Assembly: GCF_002074055.1 (NCBI RefSeq)
Contig: NZ_CP014619.1
Span: forward strand, 1 to 64,000
Origin: Frondihabitans sp. 762G35
GTDB taxonomy: Bacteria > Actinomycetota > Actinomycetes > Actinomycetales > Microbacteriaceae
DNA: 64,000 bases
Direction: 5' to 3'
Under the pieces are notes generated by a model, which had not been told where the DNA came from, made no database searches, and saw only the letters and a program-made list of their open reading frames with translations. Below are positions 55,788 to 64,000 of this stretch, piece after piece. The position numbers and the translations under genes are program-made. How positions within the stretch are numbered: position 1 is the first letter of the stretch; each line of letters opens with the position of its first letter.

Positions 55788-55984
55788 GGCGTTTCCTCTT
55801 CTTCGCTCTCGGGTCCTTGGGGCGGATCTTCGGTGTCGGCCGCTGGCCCTCCGGCTGAGTCCCTGGCTCCGTCGAGGATGCGCAGCCAGACGGTGCAGTC
55901 GGTGGTGTCATCGTGGTGAGTGGTGGTGCTGACCGTGGTGCCGGGTCGGGCGTGCGCGTTGATGGGGTAAGGGCGGAGGGTCAT
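55784..55984 (-). CDS. Hypothetical small protein
   Basis: A 66-residue protein starting MTLRPYPINAHARPGTTVS at ATG 55984, which overlaps the preceding gene stop. The first half (TTHHDDTTDCTVWLRILDGA) may form strands; the second half is acidic and disordered (DTEDPPQGPESEEEE). A longer in-frame ORF upstream is a shadow of the neighbouring gene. No family is recognised. Confidence 0.55.
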   Translation of the reverse strand: MTLRPYPINAHARPGTTVSTTTHHDDTTDCTVWLRILDGARDSAGGPAADTEDPPQGPESEEEETP

Positions 55985-56520
55985 GTCAGTCGCTGGCTGG
56001 GTCCAATGCCGATGGCATCCAGCATCACGAGTTGCACGTCCGGGGCTGTCGCTCCTGCCCCGACCAGGGTGAGCAGGTCCAGATAGCGTTCCGCCCGACG
56101 GAGGACCGTCTCCTCGATGCGCCGCATGTCGCTGTCCAGATCCTTCTCGAGGGGCTCGCCGGTGTCGGGCTCTCCCGTTATCGCCGTAAGGCGGTTCCAG
56201 TCGGGTAACCATGGGACCCAGACGGCGACGACCCGGGTGTCGGCGTCGCGGCGGAAGAGGAACCGGCCGTTCAGACGGGTCAGCCGGGGCGCATTCATCC
56301 CGGCGGCAAGGAACGTCCACCCGGCCGGCAACGCGTCGCTCCTCGAGCATGGGAAAACGAACGTGTCCTCGAGTGCGGGAACGGGCAGCAGCATCTGGTC
56401 CGGGCGAAGAGTCGGTGTCGGCTGGCCGGGAGGACGGTCGAGCCAGCCCGGTGTGCTGCCGTCGTCGTACAGTCCGAAATCGACCTGCTCCCGGTCAGCC
56501 ATCGTGGCGACCATCCCCAT
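55981..56520 (-). CDS. Hypothetical protein, paralogue of the next gene upstream
   Basis: A 179-residue protein. Its layout matches the 202-residue neighbour: a LLPVPAL start, then GWTFLAAGMN, LNGRFLFRRDADTRVVAVWVPWLP and a helical DTGEPLEKDLDSDMRRIEETVLRRAERYLDLL segment. The two proteins are tandem paralogues. The ATG at 56520 lies inside the preceding gene (26-base overlap). No function can be assigned. Confidence 0.65.
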   Translation of the reverse strand: MGMVATMADREQVDFGLYDDGSTPGWLDRPPGQPTPTLRPDQMLLPVPALEDTFVFPCSRSDALPAGWTFLAAGMNAPRLTRLNGRFLFRRDADTRVVAVWVPWLPDWNRLTAITGEPDTGEPLEKDLDSDMRRIEETVLRRAERYLDLLTLVGAGATAPDVQLVMLDAIGIGPSQRLT

Positions 56521-57103
56521 CGGCGCCGTCGGCTTCCTCGGCAGTGGTCCAGTTGTCCGGGTGGGGGAGGCGTGTCAGGCCGAGTCCTGCGGATTGGAGG
56601 ATGACGTCCTGAGAGGCGGGGTTCGCGACGACGGAGCCGATGAAGGAGTTCAGTTCCACGAGGCGTTGCGCCCGGCGGAGGGTGGACATTTCCAAGGCGT
56701 CGGTGTCGATGCCGTCCGTGTCCTCCAACGGGAGTGCCGGGCCTCCGGTGAGTTCGGTGGAGTCGAGGCATTGCGCTTCGAGGCCGAACTGCTGTGGGTT
56801 CCACCGCACCCCCACCCGCACCCGCCGACCATCCGTTTCGCGCGTATAGAGGAGCTGCCCCCAGAGGAGGCTCTGGTGGTGCATGTCGATTTCCGCCCCG
56901 GTGAGTGTCCAGCCGGGGACTTCGCCGGTGGTGTCCCACTTCGGGACGACGAGAGCGCCGGGGTGGACCGGGATGGGCAGCAGGAGTTGGTCGTTGCGGA
57001 TGACCTTAAAGACCTTCCGCGCCTGGCCGTTGCCGGGAGTGCCGCTGAATGAGGTCTCGGCCGGCTGGTCGGTCGTGTTGTCGGGGGTGGTGTTGTACGT
57101 CAT
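56495..57103 (-). CDS. Hypothetical protein, paralogue of the next gene downstream
   Basis: A 202-residue protein starting MTYNTTPDNTTDQPAETSF at ATG 57103, with AAAGGA upstream. It has LLLPIPVHPGALVVP, then GWTLTGAEIDMHHQSLLWGQLLYTRETDGRRVRVGVRWNP and a DTDALEMSTLRRAQRLVELN helix. These correspond block by block to the 179-residue neighbour. The first half is beta-rich and the second helical. The family is unknown to me; a two-gene paralogue pair may form a hetero-oligomer. Confidence 0.65.
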   Translation of the reverse strand: MTYNTTPDNTTDQPAETSFSGTPGNGQARKVFKVIRNDQLLLPIPVHPGALVVPKWDTTGEVPGWTLTGAEIDMHHQSLLWGQLLYTRETDGRRVRVGVRWNPQQFGLEAQCLDSTELTGGPALPLEDTDGIDTDALEMSTLRRAQRLVELNSFIGSVVANPASQDVILQSAGLGLTRLPHPDNWTTAEEADGADGDGRHDG

Positions 57104-57167
57104 TCGTGTCCTTTCGTCCTAGACGGGTGTGCGCGGACGGCTTGGGGTTTCGGGTGTTCCGGTGGCA

Positions 57168-58241
57168 TCAGTCGCGCATGTTCCAGCGCAGGTCCTCATC
57201 GATCTCGATCTGCCACAGGATGTGGGTTCGCATCGCCTCGAACGCCGCGTTGCGTTCCGGCTGCGAGAGCCGCGGGTCTTGTGCGAGGAGGTGGGCGGTG
57301 AGGAACTCGTCCGTGCATCCCGTCGGCCCGAAGTAGTCGGCCAGGCCGAAGATGGTGCGGTCTTCCGGGATGACGAGGGTGACGGTGGCGTCATGCCAGG
57401 TCGCGGGCCGGAACCCGAGCGGGTCAAGGTCAAGCCCGGTGCAGGAGAACACGGTCACCGACACCGGTTCGATGTGGCGCAGCACCTCGCGGGCAGCCCA
57501 GGTGCCGGAGAGGTGCACGTCGGCGTAGGCGCGGATCCGTTCGGCCTGCACCTCGAGAGGAAGGTTCGCCTTCCAGAACGTCGACGCACCGCCGGGGCCC
57601 GGATAGGCCGCGAGGATCCAGTCCAGGAGGTCTGCGGAACGTTTCGCTTCCCACCGGGTCCCGGACGGGCGCAGCATGCTCTCGAGGACCTTGAAGGAGT
57701 CTTCCGCCTGCAGGCGGGTGAGGCCGGCCATATGCATGACCCGTTCGATGTCGCCGCCCTGGCGGACGAGGACTTTCGCTGCCGCAAACACCGCGTACCG
57801 GTACCGGGACGCACTCCGCCGCGGCGTCGTCCCGTTGACAAGGTCGCCGTCGTCCCACACGAGGCCGCGGCGGAGATCGACCAGCAGGATACCCTTCCGG
57901 ATCGTGCGGGCCAGCTGGATGACGGGAGTGGGGATAGAAGTGTCGGCGATGAGGACCAGGTCGTGGCGAGGCGGAATCTCATCGATGGCGACCACCGGCC
58001 AGAACGGGCTGAAGGTCGTCAACAACACCACCCGGCCGTCGCCGAGAGTCAGCTGGTTGAACGAGGACACTTCCGCACCGGGCATGCCCGCCGCCGCGAG
58101 CACCCTGATGACAGCGGTCATGTCGGTCGTGCGCCCGAATCCGGGCGGGAGGTCGAGGAGATTCTGGGTTCGGCGGACCTCGTCACCCCAGCTCATGGGC
58201 AGCTCCGATCCCGTTCGGGCCGTCACACTCGGCATCGTCAC
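57168..58241 (-). CDS. AbiEi-like (type IV antitoxin) protein, tentative
   Basis: A 357-residue protein. The middle has a winged-helix-like ERVMHMAGLTRLQAEDSFKVL. It is followed by ADLLDWILAAYPGPGGASTFWKANLPLEVQ and a region with LSGTWAAREVL and VTLVIPEDRTIFGLADYFGPTG. The DLLDW..AYPGPGG block and the order of the following strands resemble actinobacterial AbiEi-type antitoxins of type IV toxin-antitoxin systems. No AbiEii nucleotidyltransferase is visible nearby. The call is tentative. It overlaps the upstream gene by 59 bases. Confidence 0.4.
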   Translation of the reverse strand: MTMPSVTARTGSELPMSWGDEVRRTQNLLDLPPGFGRTTDMTAVIRVLAAAGMPGAEVSSFNQLTLGDGRVVLLTTFSPFWPVVAIDEIPPRHDLVLIADTSIPTPVIQLARTIRKGILLVDLRRGLVWDDGDLVNGTTPRRSASRYRYAVFAAAKVLVRQGGDIERVMHMAGLTRLQAEDSFKVLESMLRPSGTRWEAKRSADLLDWILAAYPGPGGASTFWKANLPLEVQAERIRAYADVHLSGTWAAREVLRHIEPVSVTVFSCTGLDLDPLGFRPATWHDATVTLVIPEDRTIFGLADYFGPTGCTDEFLTAHLLAQDPRLSQPERNAAFEAMRTHILWQIEIDEDLRWNMRD

Positions 58242-58479
58242 GCTCTTCTAGGGCTGTGAGTAGGGCCCGTAAGAGCCGGTCCGCCTCGTCCACGTAGGCG
58301 CCGGTGTTGGGCAGGTGTGCCTGCCTGCCGGCGGGCGTCACCTCATACCCGGATTCAGTGTCGGCGTCGTCGACGTTGACCCGCCGCAGCTGGCCGCCGT
58401 CGGGATCCGCGAAAATGAATGCCCCAAGCATGTGAAGGCTGTCCCGGCCCAGATGCATCGACACGAGCCGAGGCCTCAC
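58183..58479 (-). CDS. Hypothetical protein
   Basis: A 98-residue protein from GTG 58479, with GGGGGAA upstream. Beta-rich RPRLVSMHLGRDSLHMLGAFIFADPDGGQLRRVNVDD is followed by YEVTPAGRQAHLPNTGAYVDEADRLLRALLTAL, a short helix, and an acidic tail that overlaps the next gene. No family is recognised. Confidence 0.55.
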   Translation of the reverse strand: MRPRLVSMHLGRDSLHMLGAFIFADPDGGQLRRVNVDDADTESGYEVTPAGRQAHLPNTGAYVDEADRLLRALLTALEERDDAECDGPNGIGAAHELG

Positions 58480-58570: not shown

Positions 58571-59053
58571 TCACAGTGTCCAGTCGAAGTCGGTGAGCGC
58601 TTCGATGACAGGCGCAGGGTCTCTCCCGCCGGCGAGCCACTCGACAGCAGACACGGGCTCGCAGTCCACGAGAGTTTCGTCGTGGGGTGTGGTCATCCAC
58701 CCGTGCATCATCGCCCCCGAGCCACCGCTAAGTGTTGCCGGCATGGCCTTAAGCACCTCGGTCAGGTGCGGGAGACGACGATATGGCGCACTCCCGCCAC
58801 TGTTCCCGGTCTTGACGAGCTGCCAGCGTGGTACTCGCTCTTCTCCGCTCTGGCTCAGCGTCCAGAGTCGCCCGGCGGCGATATCGGCCTTGACCTGATG
58901 GGCGCCGGTCCCGAGCAGGGTGGCAGCCTCGGCCACTGGGACGGTCTCCTCGAGGTGTCGCCTCCGGCCCTCTTCCTTCCACTTGGCAGCGAGTTGCGCC
59001 GCTTCCTCGTCCGACAGTTCCGGGATGTCAAACGGATCGACGTAGCTGTTCAT
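58571..59053 (-). CDS. MbcA/ParS/Xre-like antitoxin or DNA-binding protein
   Basis: A 160-residue protein starting MNSYVDPFDIPELSDEEAAQ at ATG 59053, with GAGAGAGG upstream. The middle has a helix-turn-helix of excisionase type (VPVAEAATLLGTGAHQVKADIAAGRLWTL....VPRWQL). The C-terminus (LPHLTEVLKAMPATLSG...MHGWMTTPHDETL....SAVEWLAGGRDPAPVIEAL) resembles the toxin-binding domain of RES-Xre antitoxins. No RES toxin follows. It is the first gene of the eight-gene leftward operon, so it may be its regulator. Confidence 0.6.
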   Translation of the reverse strand: MNSYVDPFDIPELSDEEAAQLAAKWKEEGRRRHLEETVPVAEAATLLGTGAHQVKADIAAGRLWTLSQSGEERVPRWQLVKTGNSGGSAPYRRLPHLTEVLKAMPATLSGGSGAMMHGWMTTPHDETLVDCEPVSAVEWLAGGRDPAPVIEALTDFDWTL

Positions 59054-59338
59054 ACCGTCACCTCTCTCGGGGACAATTGGCCGCCCTCTGGTGTCGCTCG
59101 CGTCCGCTGAGCGCGATTTAGCGGCTGGGCAAGCCGTCATTCCGAAGGCGCAGGGGTGGCCACGGACACCGCCGACAAGGTCCCACTCGACGTGCGCTGA
59201 CACTAATCGGCACGATGAGAAAGTTGCGACGCCTGTGGGTGGGCTCGCGGCGCGACTTTCCTTACGTGACACGCTCAGAGGTGAGCCACATGTCGCGCAC
59301 TTCGAGGAACAATCGCGTAACAAGTGATTGGAGTCGAA

Positions 59339-59809
59339 GTGGCCACCAAGAACATGACCCGGACAGAGCGAGCCGCTCAATTCGTGCAAAGCGCTACCGC
59401 GCGGTATGGCGCCCGCTACGACTACGCGTCGGTGCCGGAGACCTACACGAATCAGAAGGCCGAAGTGCCAATCGTTTGCGGCGCCCACGGTGTCACGTTT
59501 TGGCAAAAGCCACAGGATCATCTCCGGGGCACGGGTTGCCTGTCGTGCCGAACCCGCAGAGGCTCAACCGTACGCGGCCGCGCCGAGGCCTTCGTTCGGA
59601 AAGCGCAGGCAGTTCATGGAACCGCCTACGAGTACGACTCCGACACTTTCGAAGACGCCCACGCCGACGTGAGCATCCGATGCCTTATCCCAGGCCACGG
59701 ATGGTTCCGGCAGCGAGCGACAAATCATCTTCAGGGAGAGGGGTGCCCGTCCTGCGGTGAATCGAGTCGGCGTCTGACATGGAAGAGCAACCGCCTGGAG
59801 CGCGCCTAA
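59339..59809 (+). CDS. Protein with two treble-clef zinc-finger repeats
   Basis: A 156-residue protein made of two similar repeats. Each has a helix (RAAQFVQSATARYGARYDYASV; RAEAFVRKAQAVHGTAYEYDSD), a strand pair with CGAHG or CLIPGHG, and HLRGTGCLSCRT or HLQGEGCPSCGE. This C..HG.F.Q....HL.G.GCP.C pattern occurs in DUF723-like repeat proteins, often fused to nucleases. Here there is no nuclease domain in frame. GTG 59339 has GGAG five bases upstream; GTG 59324 and ATG 59354 are alternatives. Confidence 0.7.
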   Translation: MATKNMTRTERAAQFVQSATARYGARYDYASVPETYTNQKAEVPIVCGAHGVTFWQKPQDHLRGTGCLSCRTRRGSTVRGRAEAFVRKAQAVHGTAYEYDSDTFEDAHADVSIRCLIPGHGWFRQRATNHLQGEGCPSCGESSRRLTWKSNRLERA

Positions 59810-59850
59810 GGCATCGAACGCTTGGTCGCCGGCGGCGAATTGCTCATGGC

Positions 59851-60051
59851 GTGCCGAGTGCAGTCGCACTTCAGGCGCGACGCCAGGTGCACACTACGTC
59901 TAAAACGCGTCACGAGAGAACTCTGTCCGCTCACGCCCACGTTCTGACGGCGATCTGCGAACCGGACGCCGACCAGGTCGAAATCGAAGCGCGGCTCATC
60001 GCCGAATGCGCCCACTTGGACACCGGCAGGTCGAGACAGTTTGGAGCGTAG
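59851..60051 (+). CDS. Possible small protein or remnant
   Basis: A 66-codon reading from GTG 59851, with a plausible C-terminal helix pair (LSAHAHVLTAICEPDADQVEIEARLIAECAHL). It overlaps nothing and lies between the zinc-repeat gene and the ATPase gene. No ribosome site is clear. It could be the C-terminal remnant of a longer repeat protein. Confidence 0.25.
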   Translation: MPSAVALQARRQVHTTSKTRHERTLSAHAHVLTAICEPDADQVEIEARLIAECAHLDTGRSRQFGA

Positions 60052-60147
60052 GGACGGTCCCTCCGCTCCGCTACCCTGACATGTGTTCATGAGCATCTGT
60101 CGGAATGCCGACAAGCGGCTCACCGCCCTTAACTCCGCGACAGGCCC

Positions 60148-62493
60148 ATGCTCACCTCTCTGCACCTTCACGGGACGCCAATTTTCGGGACCTCTCCCGG
60201 GACAGATATTGGCCCGCTGACTTCCACCACGGTCATCTTCGGTCCCAACGGATCCGGTAAATCGACAATCAGTCGCGCCCTCGCCGACCCCAGCCGCTAC
60301 ACGGGTACAACTCTCCAGTGGATGAATCCCGACGCTCCTCTGAATGTGCGGGTCTACAACCGCGATTCCGTCGATGCCACCCTGCGGCAGGCGGACAGCC
60401 TTCCAGGCGTGTTCCTACTCGGCACCCAAAGCGTCGAGATCGAACGAGAGCTGGCCGAACACGACGGACCCGACGGGTGCATCGCGAAAGCCAACGAAGT
60501 CCTCGCGAGACAACGGAGGAACATCGAGGCCGCTCAAGCTGAAGCCGCCGCCGCCTTCGACGTCTTGAAGAACACTGCATGGCTTGCCCGCGGTAACGTA
60601 CCGGCGGTCCTCAAGCCGATGTTCGCCGGCTACAACGGAAGCGCCGAAAAACTCGCCAAGAGGCTCCTGGAAGCCCACACTGCACGCGGCGACGAGAACT
60701 CCGTCACTCTGTCCGCCCTCACGACGGAGGCAGCGGCGGTTCTGGACGATTCGGCTCAGACGATTGACCCCCTACCCACGTTTGATGTCGCCCGGACCGA
60801 TGACTTCTCGGACCTCGAGCTCTTTCGAGTCGCCATCGTCGGAAGCAGTGACGTTCGCCTTGCACCATTCATCGAGAAGCACGGCAATGCCGACTGGGTC
60901 CACCAGGGGCGCCACTTCCTCCAGCCAGACGCGAAAACGTGTCCGTTCTGCCAGCAGGAGGCGCCGCAAGACCTGGTCGAGCAACTCAACGCATACTTCG
61001 ACGAGACCTACACCAAGCAGCTCGCCACCCTCGCAGACATCGACAAGGAAGTTGCCATGTGGGCGCAAGAGTGGGGCGACTATCTCGAGACCCTCGCAGA
61101 GCACGCCTCCTTTTCGGCGAACGTCGACGCGGCCAAATGGGAACTAGCTAGCGTCCACCTCGTTACGGCGATAGGCGAAGTGCGTCGCGCCGCTGAGCAG
61201 AAACTCGCGACCCCATCGACCATCCTCCAGGTCACCATTCCCGAAGACGCGCAGCAACAGATAGTGGACCTCATCGACGACGCGAACCAGGCCATCGCGA
61301 CACACAATGAGCTGATCCGCACGCGGGGTGGGCGACGAACGATTTTCATCGCCAACTGTTGGGCCGCATACGCCGCCCACGACATGAAGGCCGCGCTGGA
61401 CGCCTACGACATGACCACAAACCCTCTGGAGAAACGTATCGACGGCGTTACGGACTCCGTTGCCATCAGTGTCGCCACCGTCAAGAAGCACGAAGATCGA
61501 CGCCGGGAACTCACTGCGCAAACGAAGTCCAGCCGGCTCGTCATAGACAGGATCAACAACCTGTTGGCCGGCGCTGGATTCCATACCTTCACCGTCGAGG
61601 AATCCCCGTTGCGACAAGACGGCTACATGATCCGTCGAGAAAACGGCGAGGTGGCCGACGAGACCCTCAGTGAAGGGGAACGCACGTTCATCACCTTCCT
61701 TTACTACGCCCAGTCGCTCGAGGGCGTGGCGGCCGAAGGTGAGACGCATGACATCCTCGCCGTCATCGATGACCCCATCTCAAGCCTCGACAGCGACATC
61801 CTCTACGCCGTGTCCACCATCCTCCGGTCGACGATGGCCAAGATCGGCGAGGGGACCGGCCGTGTCCGCCAACTCATCCTGCTCACCCACAACGTCCATT
61901 TCCATAAGGAGGTCAACTACGACCCTCCTCGCGGACCGAGATACCCCCGTCAGTACGGAGTCATCCGCAAGAGGCCGCACGCACCCAGCACCATCACCTT
62001 CAGTGACAAAAACCCCGTCAAGACCGTCTATGCGTCCCTCTGGGCCGAAGTGCGCCTCATCAGCGAAGACCCCACCGCGTCCACCGTCGGACTCCAGAAC
62101 GTTCTGCGGCGCATCATCGAGTCGTACTTCCAGATTCTCGGTGGTGTCGACACGGCAGACATCGTTGCCCAGTTCAGCGGACATGAGAAAGTGCTATGTC
62201 GCAGCCTTGTCTCCTGGGTCAACGCCGGTTCGCATTCAGTCTTCGACGACTTGCACTACAGCGAAACCGCCAGCACCGTCGACGCCAATCTCGCAGTCTT
62301 CGAGCAGATTTTCCGCATCATGCACCAGCACGGCCATTACCAAATGATGATGGGCGAGTCGTTCGTAGACGACCCCGTTGATCCAGAAGCAACGGCCGAG
62401 GAACGGGGCGACTCGATGGCCAACTCCAGCGGCGCCCCTGCGGCGCAGCCAACCGTACAGACCAGCCCGTCTTCGCAATCGTCCACGGGCTGA
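60148..62493 (+). CDS. AAA_13 ATPase of the RloC/PrrC type (candidate anticodon nuclease)
   Basis: A 781-residue SMC/ABC-like ATPase. It has Walker A FGPNGSGKST (31-40), a helical arm with a Cys265-Pro-Phe-Cys268 zinc-hook motif, the signature LSEGERTFITFLYY (about 508-521) and Walker B ILAVIDDPISSLDSD. PrrC and RloC are tRNA-cutting phage-defence enzymes with an Arg-Glu-His triad after the ATPase. Here Arg654-x3-Glu658 (LRRIIESYF) and His696 (NAGSHS) fit that pattern. RloC also has a zinc hook. The C-terminus is disordered. Confidence 0.75.
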   Translation: MLTSLHLHGTPIFGTSPGTDIGPLTSTTVIFGPNGSGKSTISRALADPSRYTGTTLQWMNPDAPLNVRVYNRDSVDATLRQADSLPGVFLLGTQSVEIERELAEHDGPDGCIAKANEVLARQRRNIEAAQAEAAAAFDVLKNTAWLARGNVPAVLKPMFAGYNGSAEKLAKRLLEAHTARGDENSVTLSALTTEAAAVLDDSAQTIDPLPTFDVARTDDFSDLELFRVAIVGSSDVRLAPFIEKHGNADWVHQGRHFLQPDAKTCPFCQQEAPQDLVEQLNAYFDETYTKQLATLADIDKEVAMWAQEWGDYLETLAEHASFSANVDAAKWELASVHLVTAIGEVRRAAEQKLATPSTILQVTIPEDAQQQIVDLIDDANQAIATHNELIRTRGGRRTIFIANCWAAYAAHDMKAALDAYDMTTNPLEKRIDGVTDSVAISVATVKKHEDRRRELTAQTKSSRLVIDRINNLLAGAGFHTFTVEESPLRQDGYMIRRENGEVADETLSEGERTFITFLYYAQSLEGVAAEGETHDILAVIDDPISSLDSDILYAVSTILRSTMAKIGEGTGRVRQLILLTHNVHFHKEVNYDPPRGPRYPRQYGVIRKRPHAPSTITFSDKNPVKTVYASLWAEVRLISEDPTASTVGLQNVLRRIIESYFQILGGVDTADIVAQFSGHEKVLCRSLVSWVNAGSHSVFDDLHYSETASTVDANLAVFEQIFRIMHQHGHYQMMMGESFVDDPVDPEATAEERGDSMANSSGAPAAQPTVQTSPSSQSSTG

Positions 62494-62530
62494 GTCCGGC
62501 GCAACCTGCGGGAGTGCCCAGCAGGAAGCC

Positions 62531-62632
62531 GTGAAGCAGGCCTCCAAGCACATCGCCGACGCTGCTCTCCAAGTCGGCCGCGGCAAAATCACACTCCGTC
62601 AATGGGCAAGACGAAAGGTCACAACCCGGTGA
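62531..62632 (+). CDS. Possible 33-residue basic peptide
   Basis: A GTG-started ORF reading MKQASKHIADAALQVGRGKITLRQWARRKVTTR, with AGGA upstream. Its stop forms GTGA with the GTG of the next gene, the tight coupling typical of real genes. The product would be a short basic helix. It may serve only to couple translation. Confidence 0.4.
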   Translation: MKQASKHIADAALQVGRGKITLRQWARRKVTTR

Positions 62633-63021
62633 ATAAAAGCGACTACCCCGAGGTCATCGAACTGGTTCGCGACTTGGCACGCGAACACGGAGGCATCGAC
62701 TTCGATGACGTGCTCGAGGACATCTCAGTCGGCGGTAAAGGAGAACTCCTCGACCTTCTACGACGGCTCCGCCAAGAAGTGTTCCTCCATTCGCGGGGCG
62801 CCGTGGCCCTGGTGACCGGGAGATACGCTCGCGTTCTCGACATGCCGGTTCCTCCATACATCGACATTGTTCGAGACTCCGATCCACGAATTGCGCCCAC
62901 CGGCCCAAATGGGGCGGCCGTGGAAGGTAGCGCAGCCGCCGACGTGGCCGTCGCCGAACTCGACGACCTCATTCACGCGCTCGACAACGACACCGGCGAC
63001 AGTGCGGAGATGACGGTCTAG
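62629..63021 (+). CDS. Hypothetical protein of the PrrC-like cassette
   Basis: A 130-residue protein from GTG 62629, preceded by AAAGG and overlapping the small ORF. The N-terminal 60 residues look like a winged-helix or helical-bundle domain (DYPEVIELVRDLAREHGGIDFDDVLEDISVGGKGELLDLLRRLRQEVFLHSRGAVALV). Then comes a Pro-rich YARVLDMPVPPYIDIV and an acidic C-terminus (DVAVAELDDLIHAL). An upstream in-frame ATG at 62602 would add nine residues. It lies between the ATPase and the nuclease gene. The function is unknown. Confidence 0.6.
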   Translation: MNKSDYPEVIELVRDLAREHGGIDFDDVLEDISVGGKGELLDLLRRLRQEVFLHSRGAVALVTGRYARVLDMPVPPYIDIVRDSDPRIAPTGPNGAAVEGSAAADVAVAELDDLIHALDNDTGDSAEMTV

Positions 63022-63024
63022 CCC

Positions 63025-63690
63025 ATGCCAACGCCACAGAAAGCCAACGTCATCGTCACCATCCGCAAAGCGTTCGCCGCGATGGGGGCTGCGTCCGATC
63101 CTTTAAAAAAGACCGGACCGGGGAAGATCTACGAGGCGTGGACCCTCGTTAACATCCTGGAGAACCTAAAGACGCAGGAAGGTGTGACGGTTGCCGTCCA
63201 CGGGGGTTCAACAATGCGCTTCAGAGCGGGTCATGGCCCCATCGACAAGCGTTTCACCTGGCTCGAATGCCAGAGCCGAACCCAGTCCTTCGAGATCTGG
63301 ACAGACATCGAAGTCCTCTCACTTAGCCACAACCGACGACCAGGAGCACCGACAAGCCCTGTCGATGGTGACATGCACGAACTCGACATCGTCGCCGTCG
63401 CCTCGGGCACCACTGGACATCCCCGCCACGACCAGATCCTCTGGGGAATCGAGTGCAAGCACACGACTTTCAGCAAGGCATTTCACCGGTCGATGCTCGG
63501 CATGCGACGGGAACTGAGCTTGTTCCGGGGCAACCCCCAGCGGACCGCGTTCACCAGATACCCGGCGGCGGACGTCGAATCAGACCCGCCGTCCGTCCTC
63601 ACCGCATTTTCGACCGACCGCACCGTCACTCGATTCCAACCGGCCGGCGACGCCTGGGACATCATCTACACGCACCTGCCTATGCCCTAG
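63025..63690 (+). CDS. PD-(D/E)XK-fold nuclease-like protein
   Basis: A 221-residue protein with a restriction-endonuclease-like core: an N-terminal helix with Glu37 (KIYEAWTLVNIL), then Asp121 in HELDIVAVASG and Glu143-Cys-Lys145 in ILWGIECKHTTF. This is the D....ExK arrangement of metal-dependent nucleases. Basic and aromatic residues follow (HRSMLGMRRELSLFRGNPQRTAFTRYP). It starts three bases after the previous stop and so belongs with the PrrC-like ATPase cassette. Confidence 0.7.
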   Translation: MPTPQKANVIVTIRKAFAAMGAASDPLKKTGPGKIYEAWTLVNILENLKTQEGVTVAVHGGSTMRFRAGHGPIDKRFTWLECQSRTQSFEIWTDIEVLSLSHNRRPGAPTSPVDGDMHELDIVAVASGTTGHPRHDQILWGIECKHTTFSKAFHRSMLGMRRELSLFRGNPQRTAFTRYPAADVESDPPSVLTAFSTDRTVTRFQPAGDAWDIIYTHLPMP

Positions 63691-63789
63691 GTTGCTGGCG
63701 TCAAGGCCACGGACAGTTACGCAGCGCCTCGTCGACGAGGTGCGACAATCGGTACCGTTCAGGTCGCTGTCGGAGAAAGGGACTGGGGA

Positions 63790-64000
63790 ATGTTGGAGAC
63801 ACAAAACGACGAGTTCGACCGTCCAGTCGGAGGGCACGGAGCCACAATTCCCGTCCCCATCGCCCTGACGGAAGGGGCGGCGAACTATCTCCGGCACACC
63901 GCCTGTCGAAACTTCTTCCGCGAGCAAAGGGACCGGTTCGACATTCTGGGCGCCGGGACTGCAGCGGACGACCCAGTTTTCGACCAAGGCACGATGATGT
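63790..64000 (+). CDS. Partial hypothetical protein (cut by window end)
   Basis: The first 70 codons of a gene starting MLETQNDEFDRPVGGHGATIP at ATG 63790, with GGGGA close upstream. The visible part is hydrophilic (EGAANYLRHTACRNFFREQRDRFDILG) with no recognised motif. It lies 99 bases after the nuclease gene in the same direction and may be a further member of the cassette. Confidence 0.6.
   Translation, partial: MLETQNDEFDRPVGGHGATIPVPIALTEGAANYLRHTACRNFFREQRDRFDILGAGTAADDPVFDQGTMM

Follow-up and report, generated by a model that had tools for sequence, protein, structure and literature searches.

The first 64,000 nucleotides of Frondihabitans sp. 762G35 (NZ_CP014619.1), called the window below, form the start of a single 3.41 Mb contig and carry near their right-hand end four rightward open reading frames (ORFs): a large ATPase, a 33-codon ORF, a small acidic protein and a predicted nuclease (Table 1). 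A sequence-only reading of this DNA had joined them into one defence cassette. The genes and motifs described there are confirmed, including the coordinates, the GTGA at 62629-62632 by which the end of the 33-codon ORF overlaps the start of the 130-residue gene, and the three-base spacer (CCC) between that gene and the nuclease; the interpretation placed on them is partly supported, and its single cassette is not supported. The ATPase and the small gene lie on the same strand, separated by a gap of 135 bp. From 59 kb to the end of the window the GC fraction falls below the 0.64-0.70 of the preceding 9 kb, and the dip closes near 65 kb of the contig, which suggests an island, and the setting resembles a defence island.

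Table 1. Features of the ATPase and nuclease-pair region of the window
Feature	Position	Strand	Basis
RloC-like ATPase and predicted anticodon nuclease, 781 aa	60148..62493	+	Pfam, PADLOC, motifs
Zinc hook CPFC, ATPase residues 265-268	60940..60951	+	11/11 aligned rows covering the hook, window included
Anticodon-nuclease triad R654, E658, H696 (Ser before His)	62107..62235	+	12/12 aligned rows, window included
33-codon ORF, unsupported as a part	62531..62632	+	Best E 1.3 among fetched loci
Acidic 130-aa protein starting with GTG, upstream gene of the pair	62629..63021	+	Apparent divergent family member
Predicted PD-(D/E)xK-like nuclease of 221 aa, downstream gene of the pair	63025..63690	+	29-41% identity to ten relatives (alignment A5)
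Predicted nuclease catalytic core	63133..63459	+	Alignments, predicted alpha-beta order
Core residue E37	63133-63135	+	
Core residue D121	63385-63387	+	
Core residues E143-C-K145	63451-63459	+	
Low-GC stretch	59000..64000	none	GC 0.61-0.62, reaching ~65 kb of the contig

The ATPase matches Pfam AAA_13 with 438 bits (residues 13-722), and its best PADLOC match is to PDC-S06, a single-gene candidate system, with 632 bits over the full length. The PADLOC model for PrrC gives a weak match of 29 bits, confined to residues 508-733, and no solved structure is matched by sequence at E 0.001. Relatives, taken at E <= 1e-30, were detected in 5 of 198 genomes of the order (the window's own included) and in 10 of 72,556 plasmid records, of which eight were fetched (the partial plasmid matches H13 and H14 were not), giving a set of 12 loci (L030-L041). 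The alignment combines the window with 11 of these; L034, which is split by an insertion, was left out, and L033 is represented by its C-terminal half, without Walker A. The ABC motifs (Walker A at 32-39, the signature LSEGE at 507-511 and Walker B at 537-548) align with those of the 11 relatives, and the zinc hook and nuclease triad named in the earlier reading occur at the positions given there and are conserved among relatives. The triad is spaced R654-x3-E658-x37-S695-H696. In PMC2610378, the RloC signature is given as Arg-X3-Glu-X36-52-His, often with Ser before the His, RloC proteins are said to range from 658 to 897 aa, and PrrC is described as lacking the zinc hook. Because this published signature is present, and with a length inside the RloC range, the protein is filed as RloC; by sequence it fits an RloC with a predicted anticodon nuclease, in line with the earlier RloC/PrrC assignment, and it is a new member of a known family.

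Two of the ATPase loci have features of their own. On an Arthrobacter plasmid (L034:6001-9821) the relative is interrupted by DNA that carries a transposase gene, and on an alphaproteobacterial plasmid (L036:6001-9008) it shares a single base with a DUF3223 (DCL family) gene downstream, which makes that gene a possible different partner of the ATPase.

The last gene has no match at E 1 in Pfam, PADLOC or NCBIfam. Relatives were collected at 14 loci besides the window (L003-L014, L017 and L021), from one plasmid record, one scaffold of a phage collection, a genome collection (84,980 species; 10 loci kept of 44 pattern matches) and whole-genome searches. The nuclease of L005 is closest to that of the window. 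The broken or truncated copies of L013 and L014 were omitted from the nuclease alignments, and L017 and L021 appear in the 13-member motif alignment only. In this alignment of unbroken homologues, counting the window, all 13 members have E37, D121 and K145 and 12 of them have E143, so that the D121 and E143-x-K145 signature recognised earlier is borne out as a conserved one. The predicted order of secondary structure (helix 32-52, strands, strand 117-126, strand 138-142, helix 151-164) fits a PD-(D/E)xK core, and the gene is predicted to encode a probable PD-(D/E)xK-like nuclease. A Pfam scan of 11 of the nucleases gave one weak match, to RRG7 (3.8e-4), a family which presumably belongs to the nuclease clan, and PADLOC at E 1 matched none of the 11. 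Searches of solved structures by sequence gave nothing for the window nuclease at E 10; the family profile found AbaSI as its sole match up to E 10 (E 0.13, profile positions 21-75).

In the window and in 14/14 relatives a small ORF either overlaps the start of the nuclease gene or stops no more than about 20 bp from it, and the tight linkage noted in the window is thus a recurrent arrangement. The small-protein profile matches 13 of these 14 loci; since 12 of the 13 were used to build it, only L017 is an independent match. The small proteins of the pair have 129-149 residues, and the GTG start of the 130-residue form in the window is supported because the relatives begin at or near the equivalent residue. 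The window protein has no match at E 1 in Pfam, PADLOC or NCBIfam, the last two having been scanned with the window's copy only; across the family, Pfam gives scattered matches and no consistent domain. It was linked to the family by a single BLASTP comparison with the L005 protein (4e-5), by hhalign against the family profile (E 4.6e-6) and by a profile search at maximum sensitivity, in which it was the best remaining match (E 0.0056) and 0 of 2000 shuffles reached its score. On these comparisons it appears to be a divergent member, by a signal that is weak but above chance. The predicted isoelectric point (pI) is 4.33 for the window protein and 4.05-5.35 in 13 of the 14 proteins computed, a set without L021; the exception is L008, at 6.6. 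The protein is predicted to be all-helical at low confidence (model pLDDT 59.5), and the profile matches solved structures at chance level (best E 0.043).

The two parts of the locus were not found together elsewhere. None of the 12 ATPase loci contains the nuclease or the small gene (no profile match at E 1; tblastn matches from E 1.2 upwards), and none of the 14 nuclease loci contains the ATPase at E 0.01 within the flanks available. This is the co-occurrence check that the sequence-only reading had itself proposed, and with 0/12 and 0/14 loci combining both parts, the joint three-gene cassette was rejected as the main interpretation. The further proposal that tRNA and DNA nuclease activities share one sensor is likewise unsupported, the ATPase and the pair not having been found together at the loci sampled. 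The best reading of their adjacency is clustering within the island, with no obligate complex. Two other candidate members were dropped. The 33-codon ORF has no homologue among the fetched loci, and was rejected as a member on this ground. The gene at 63790, taken earlier for a partial one that might extend the cassette, does exist, as a complete ORF of 121 aa (63790-64155) that crosses the window edge; its product matches nothing in Pfam at E 1 or in NCBIfam at E 0.001, and the extension itself was rejected because the gene has no counterpart near other copies of the nuclease pair.

The nuclease family is rare and widely scattered. Among 396 genomes of the phylum, only the window's own has it; the counts are 2 of 396 for the order (own included) and 3 of 398 for the phylum of the Pseudomonas copy (centre genome included). 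Three further genome searches (217, 200 and 179 genomes) returned the centre genome alone, and four queries of the 72,556 plasmid records returned one. The pair is absent from the E. coli genomes searched with one copy as a DNA query. Three scans of viral_contigs did not find it, and the one match in 50,697 records of the phage collection is an unverified fecal scaffold carrying SIR2-HerA; a viral origin was rejected on these results. Copies of the pair occur in Actinobacteria, Proteobacteria and Bacteroidetes and in metagenome-assembled genomes of an Acidobacterium, a Chloroflexi bacterium (in which the nuclease is broken) and an archaeon. Both genes are under purifying selection in the relatives compared (dN/dS 0.05-0.23 in six comparisons among six relatives, window excluded, some synonymous distances being near saturation). 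Two loci, L013:1998-3255 and L014:9468-10496, combine an intact small gene with a broken or truncated nuclease, as would be expected if the nuclease were the harmful partner, although two cases prove little. The pair is not described in the titles and abstract openings that made up the literature searched, outside of which lie supplements and most subscription papers. It is a so far unnamed module whose general kind is known, and it has no family in Pfam, PADLOC or NCBIfam.

In the relatives the pair moves as a unit. Three gammaproteobacterial loci (L003, L008 and L009) share only a block of about 1.16 kb, which runs from 20-31 bp upstream of the small gene to about 50 bp past the nuclease. 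Between L008 and L009 the shared DNA is exactly 1158 bp at 93.5% identity, with 20 bp ahead of the small gene and 51 bp beyond the nuclease, and thus holds the pair and little else; L003 carries the same block at 81-84%. DNA similarity among L004, L013 and L017 also begins 13-40 bp before the small gene, and the nucleases of L004 and L017 are 76% identical in different surroundings. Using what we take to be the attC consensus, a clear attC-type hairpin was detected in the block tail of L009 (z -4.95) and a weaker one in that of L003 (z -2.52). L009 also has a second attC-like site after the next small ORF (z -1.51) and, just upstream, an integron-integrase-like fragment (94 bits to TIGR02249, cut-off 265) with a second piece that contains a stop. 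This fragment is suggestive only, because weak matches to the same model, none above the cut-off, occur in 14/14 control genomes. The L008 genome has two integrases above the cut-off, on other contigs, and the matches in the L003 record are weak and far away. Taken together, the L009 copy looks like an integron cassette. Integron-borne cassettes for phage defence have been reported (Kieffer 2025; Darracq, Littner et al.; both as described in PMC12409362), and the pair cassette is for this reason a natural anti-phage candidate. Inspection by eye of the gaps of L010, L011, L017 and L006, as sequence and as folded RNA, showed no evident attC-like site.

As a raw tally, 9 of the 15 loci, window included, have a recognised defence- or conflict-type gene in the neighbourhood of the pair. 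These are the RloC of the window; HD-CE with HATPase at L003; SIR2 and HerA, upstream of the pair, at L004; PDC-S27 and a DUF1016/YhcG nuclease at L006; PRTase-CE with wHTH and a reverse transcriptase at L009; PD-Lambda-4_A at L010; RADAR-like RdrA and RdrB, both below NCBIfam cut-offs, at L011; an N6/N4 DNA methylase at L012; and a partial match to Avs1b (58 bits), downstream of the pair, at L017. The "CE" of these names presumably stands for conflict element. Outside this tally, a Fic gene lies on the opposite strand at L014, and no defence gene was recognised at L005, L007, L008, L013 and L021, where few or no neighbours were scanned (library scans covered one neighbour each at L005, L007 and L014, two at L008 and none at L013 and L021). 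The L009 locus (L009:8904-14736, Halomonas) contains, in this order, the interrupted integrase fragment, the pair, the weaker attC-like site and a set of PRTase-CE/wHTH, reverse transcriptase and DUF4238 genes that resembles a retron-type system. At L011:9508-15814, 103 bp separate the pair from the divergent RdrA/RdrB-like genes downstream of it. The nuclease stop is followed after 103-124 bp by the start of a large ATPase or sensor gene at L003, L010, L011 and L017, and the four gap sequences are mutually unrelated by eye.

The reading given the most weight, which is considered more likely than not, is that the island holds two independent units, a stand-alone RloC and a mobile nuclease pair whose small protein likely restrains the nuclease. 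By analogy with studied RloCs, the Rad50-like ABC ATPase with its zinc hook would sense DNA ends, and this sensing would switch on the predicted C-terminal HEPN-type anticodon nuclease. An internal switch responding to linear DNA, and only rare linkage to restriction systems, are described for RloC in PMC3874168. In the pair, the small acidic protein is probably co-translated with the nuclease encoded just after it, and may bind and restrain it, as in toxin-antitoxin-like or abortive-infection pairs, until infection lifts the restraint and the nuclease attacks DNA. Restraint is the most likely role that we infer for the small protein.

Several results weigh against this reading. The window small protein has no ordinary HMM match at E 0.01, no tblastn match in the plasmid collection, which includes L003, and no BLASTP alignment with the protein of L003, and its membership in the family is correspondingly weak; the small ORF of L021 is undetected by the small-protein profile, and the nuclease of the same locus has Ser at 143 and is without E143. 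The nuclease structure model is of modest confidence (pLDDT 64.5) and Foldseek gave only chance-level matches with none at E <= 0.001, so the PD-(D/E)xK fold is unproven. With respect to mobility, the block tail of L008 does not fold (z 0.12), neither L003 nor L008 has a full integrase next to it, and a rough scan of 62400-64000 in the window showed no attC-like site. The evidence for independence is itself bounded, as sampling on the ATPase side was confined to the order (198 genomes) and the plasmid records, the sequence of L031 extends only some 0.5 kb past the ATPase, and the flanks before the small gene are short at several nuclease loci, among them L013 (2.0 kb) and L017 (3.6 kb).

The main rival on mechanism is that the pair is a modification-dependent (type IV-like) nuclease with a helper, the small protein being a specificity or activating subunit and no inhibitor. 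This model, a minority possibility that deserves to be taken seriously, keeps the two units and differs on the mechanism of the pair only, so that its share of belief overlaps with that of the reading preferred here. AbaSI, the one solved structure that the nuclease profile reaches, is a modification-dependent enzyme, and no DNA methyltransferase belongs to the pair; however, the AbaSI match is not significant, and the small protein is predicted, at low confidence, to be all-helical and has no Pfam domain consistent across its family.

It is less probable still that ATPase and pair form one system in this lineage, in which the nuclease would cut invading DNA, the ends so made would activate the RloC ATPase, and tRNA cleavage would be a fall-back, much as PrrC guards a type I restriction enzyme. 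The shared strand and short gap are compatible with such a model, as are the activation of RloC by linear DNA and by DNA-breaking agents (reported in PMC3874168) and a proposal in PMC3710099 that HEPN nucleases with links to restriction genes take part in a multi-pronged defence. No terminator-like site was found on the + strand of 59800-64000, which says little, since few would be expected from shuffled sequences as well and no promoter turned up in the same scan. Against the model, the two parts stand together in no other sampled locus, and the neighbours of the pair elsewhere are many different systems or, at some loci, none that was recognised.

A rather unlikely version of coupling is that the pair is a portable side-arm which adds DNA cleavage to whichever large sensor ATPase lies adjacent. 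Its partners would be the RloC-like, RADAR-like, Avs1-like, PD-Lambda-4, SIR2-HerA and HD-CE/HATPase systems, which otherwise act mainly on RNA, nucleotides or NAD; the 103-124 bp gap of the four loci would mark a docking position, and in the window the ends made by the nuclease would switch on RloC. Finally, a Lamassu variant is highly improbable: Lamassu consists of an SMC-like ATPase with a zinc hook, a small subunit and a nuclease effector, the same three kinds of part, and LmuB models do match the ATPase weakly (best E 8.8e-12), but it was rejected on model scores, with 632 bits for PDC-S06 against 43 for LmuB, a nuclease triad of the ATPase's own, and no match of PADLOC models at E 1, LmuA and LmuC included, to the window small protein or any of the 11 nucleases.

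Further ORFs outside the pair and the ATPase were also observed. Just upstream of the ATPase, in low-GC DNA, 59324-59809 encodes a 161-aa protein with paired cysteine motifs like those of treble-clef zinc ribbons and only sub-threshold matches in Pfam. At 55981-58479, four minus-strand ORFs form a run that is Pfam-negative at E 0.01, and its 179-aa and 202-aa ORFs are similar by eye.

The RloC part of the locus is ordinary, and the pair stands out as a compact module with a probable nuclease for which the three libraries searched have no family. If the pair serves in defence, it would be a new unit of two genes, able to travel in integrons, and one that shows how such a unit may settle beside larger systems and be mistaken for their parts.

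Compared with known systems, the window ATPase shares with the RloC proteins of Geobacillus and Acinetobacter the ABC motifs, the CxxC hook, the triad with Ser before His, and the size, and no restriction system was recognised by eye in the stretch viewed here. It differs in having the unrelated nuclease pair downstream, and its activity on tRNA is predicted from sequence. PrrC shares the ATPase and the anticodon-nuclease triad but lacks the zinc hook; no type Ic restriction locus was recognised by eye in the ORF lists for 56-75 kb of the contig, most of whose ORFs were unscanned. From PDC-S06, which is matched over its full length, no difference was seen, and that model covers the ATPase only. 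Type II toxin-antitoxin systems resemble the pair in arrangement, with a small acidic gene first, overlapping or abutting the gene of a predicted enzyme, and most type II toxins are smaller than the nuclease of the pair. The integron cassettes for phage defence are similar in that the L003, L008 and L009 copies are compact, with about 20 bp before the first gene, and L009 has the attC-type hairpin and the integrase-like fragment, whereas the window copy shows no attC; PMC12409362 reports anti-phage activity for those cassettes, and for the pair such activity is a candidate one.

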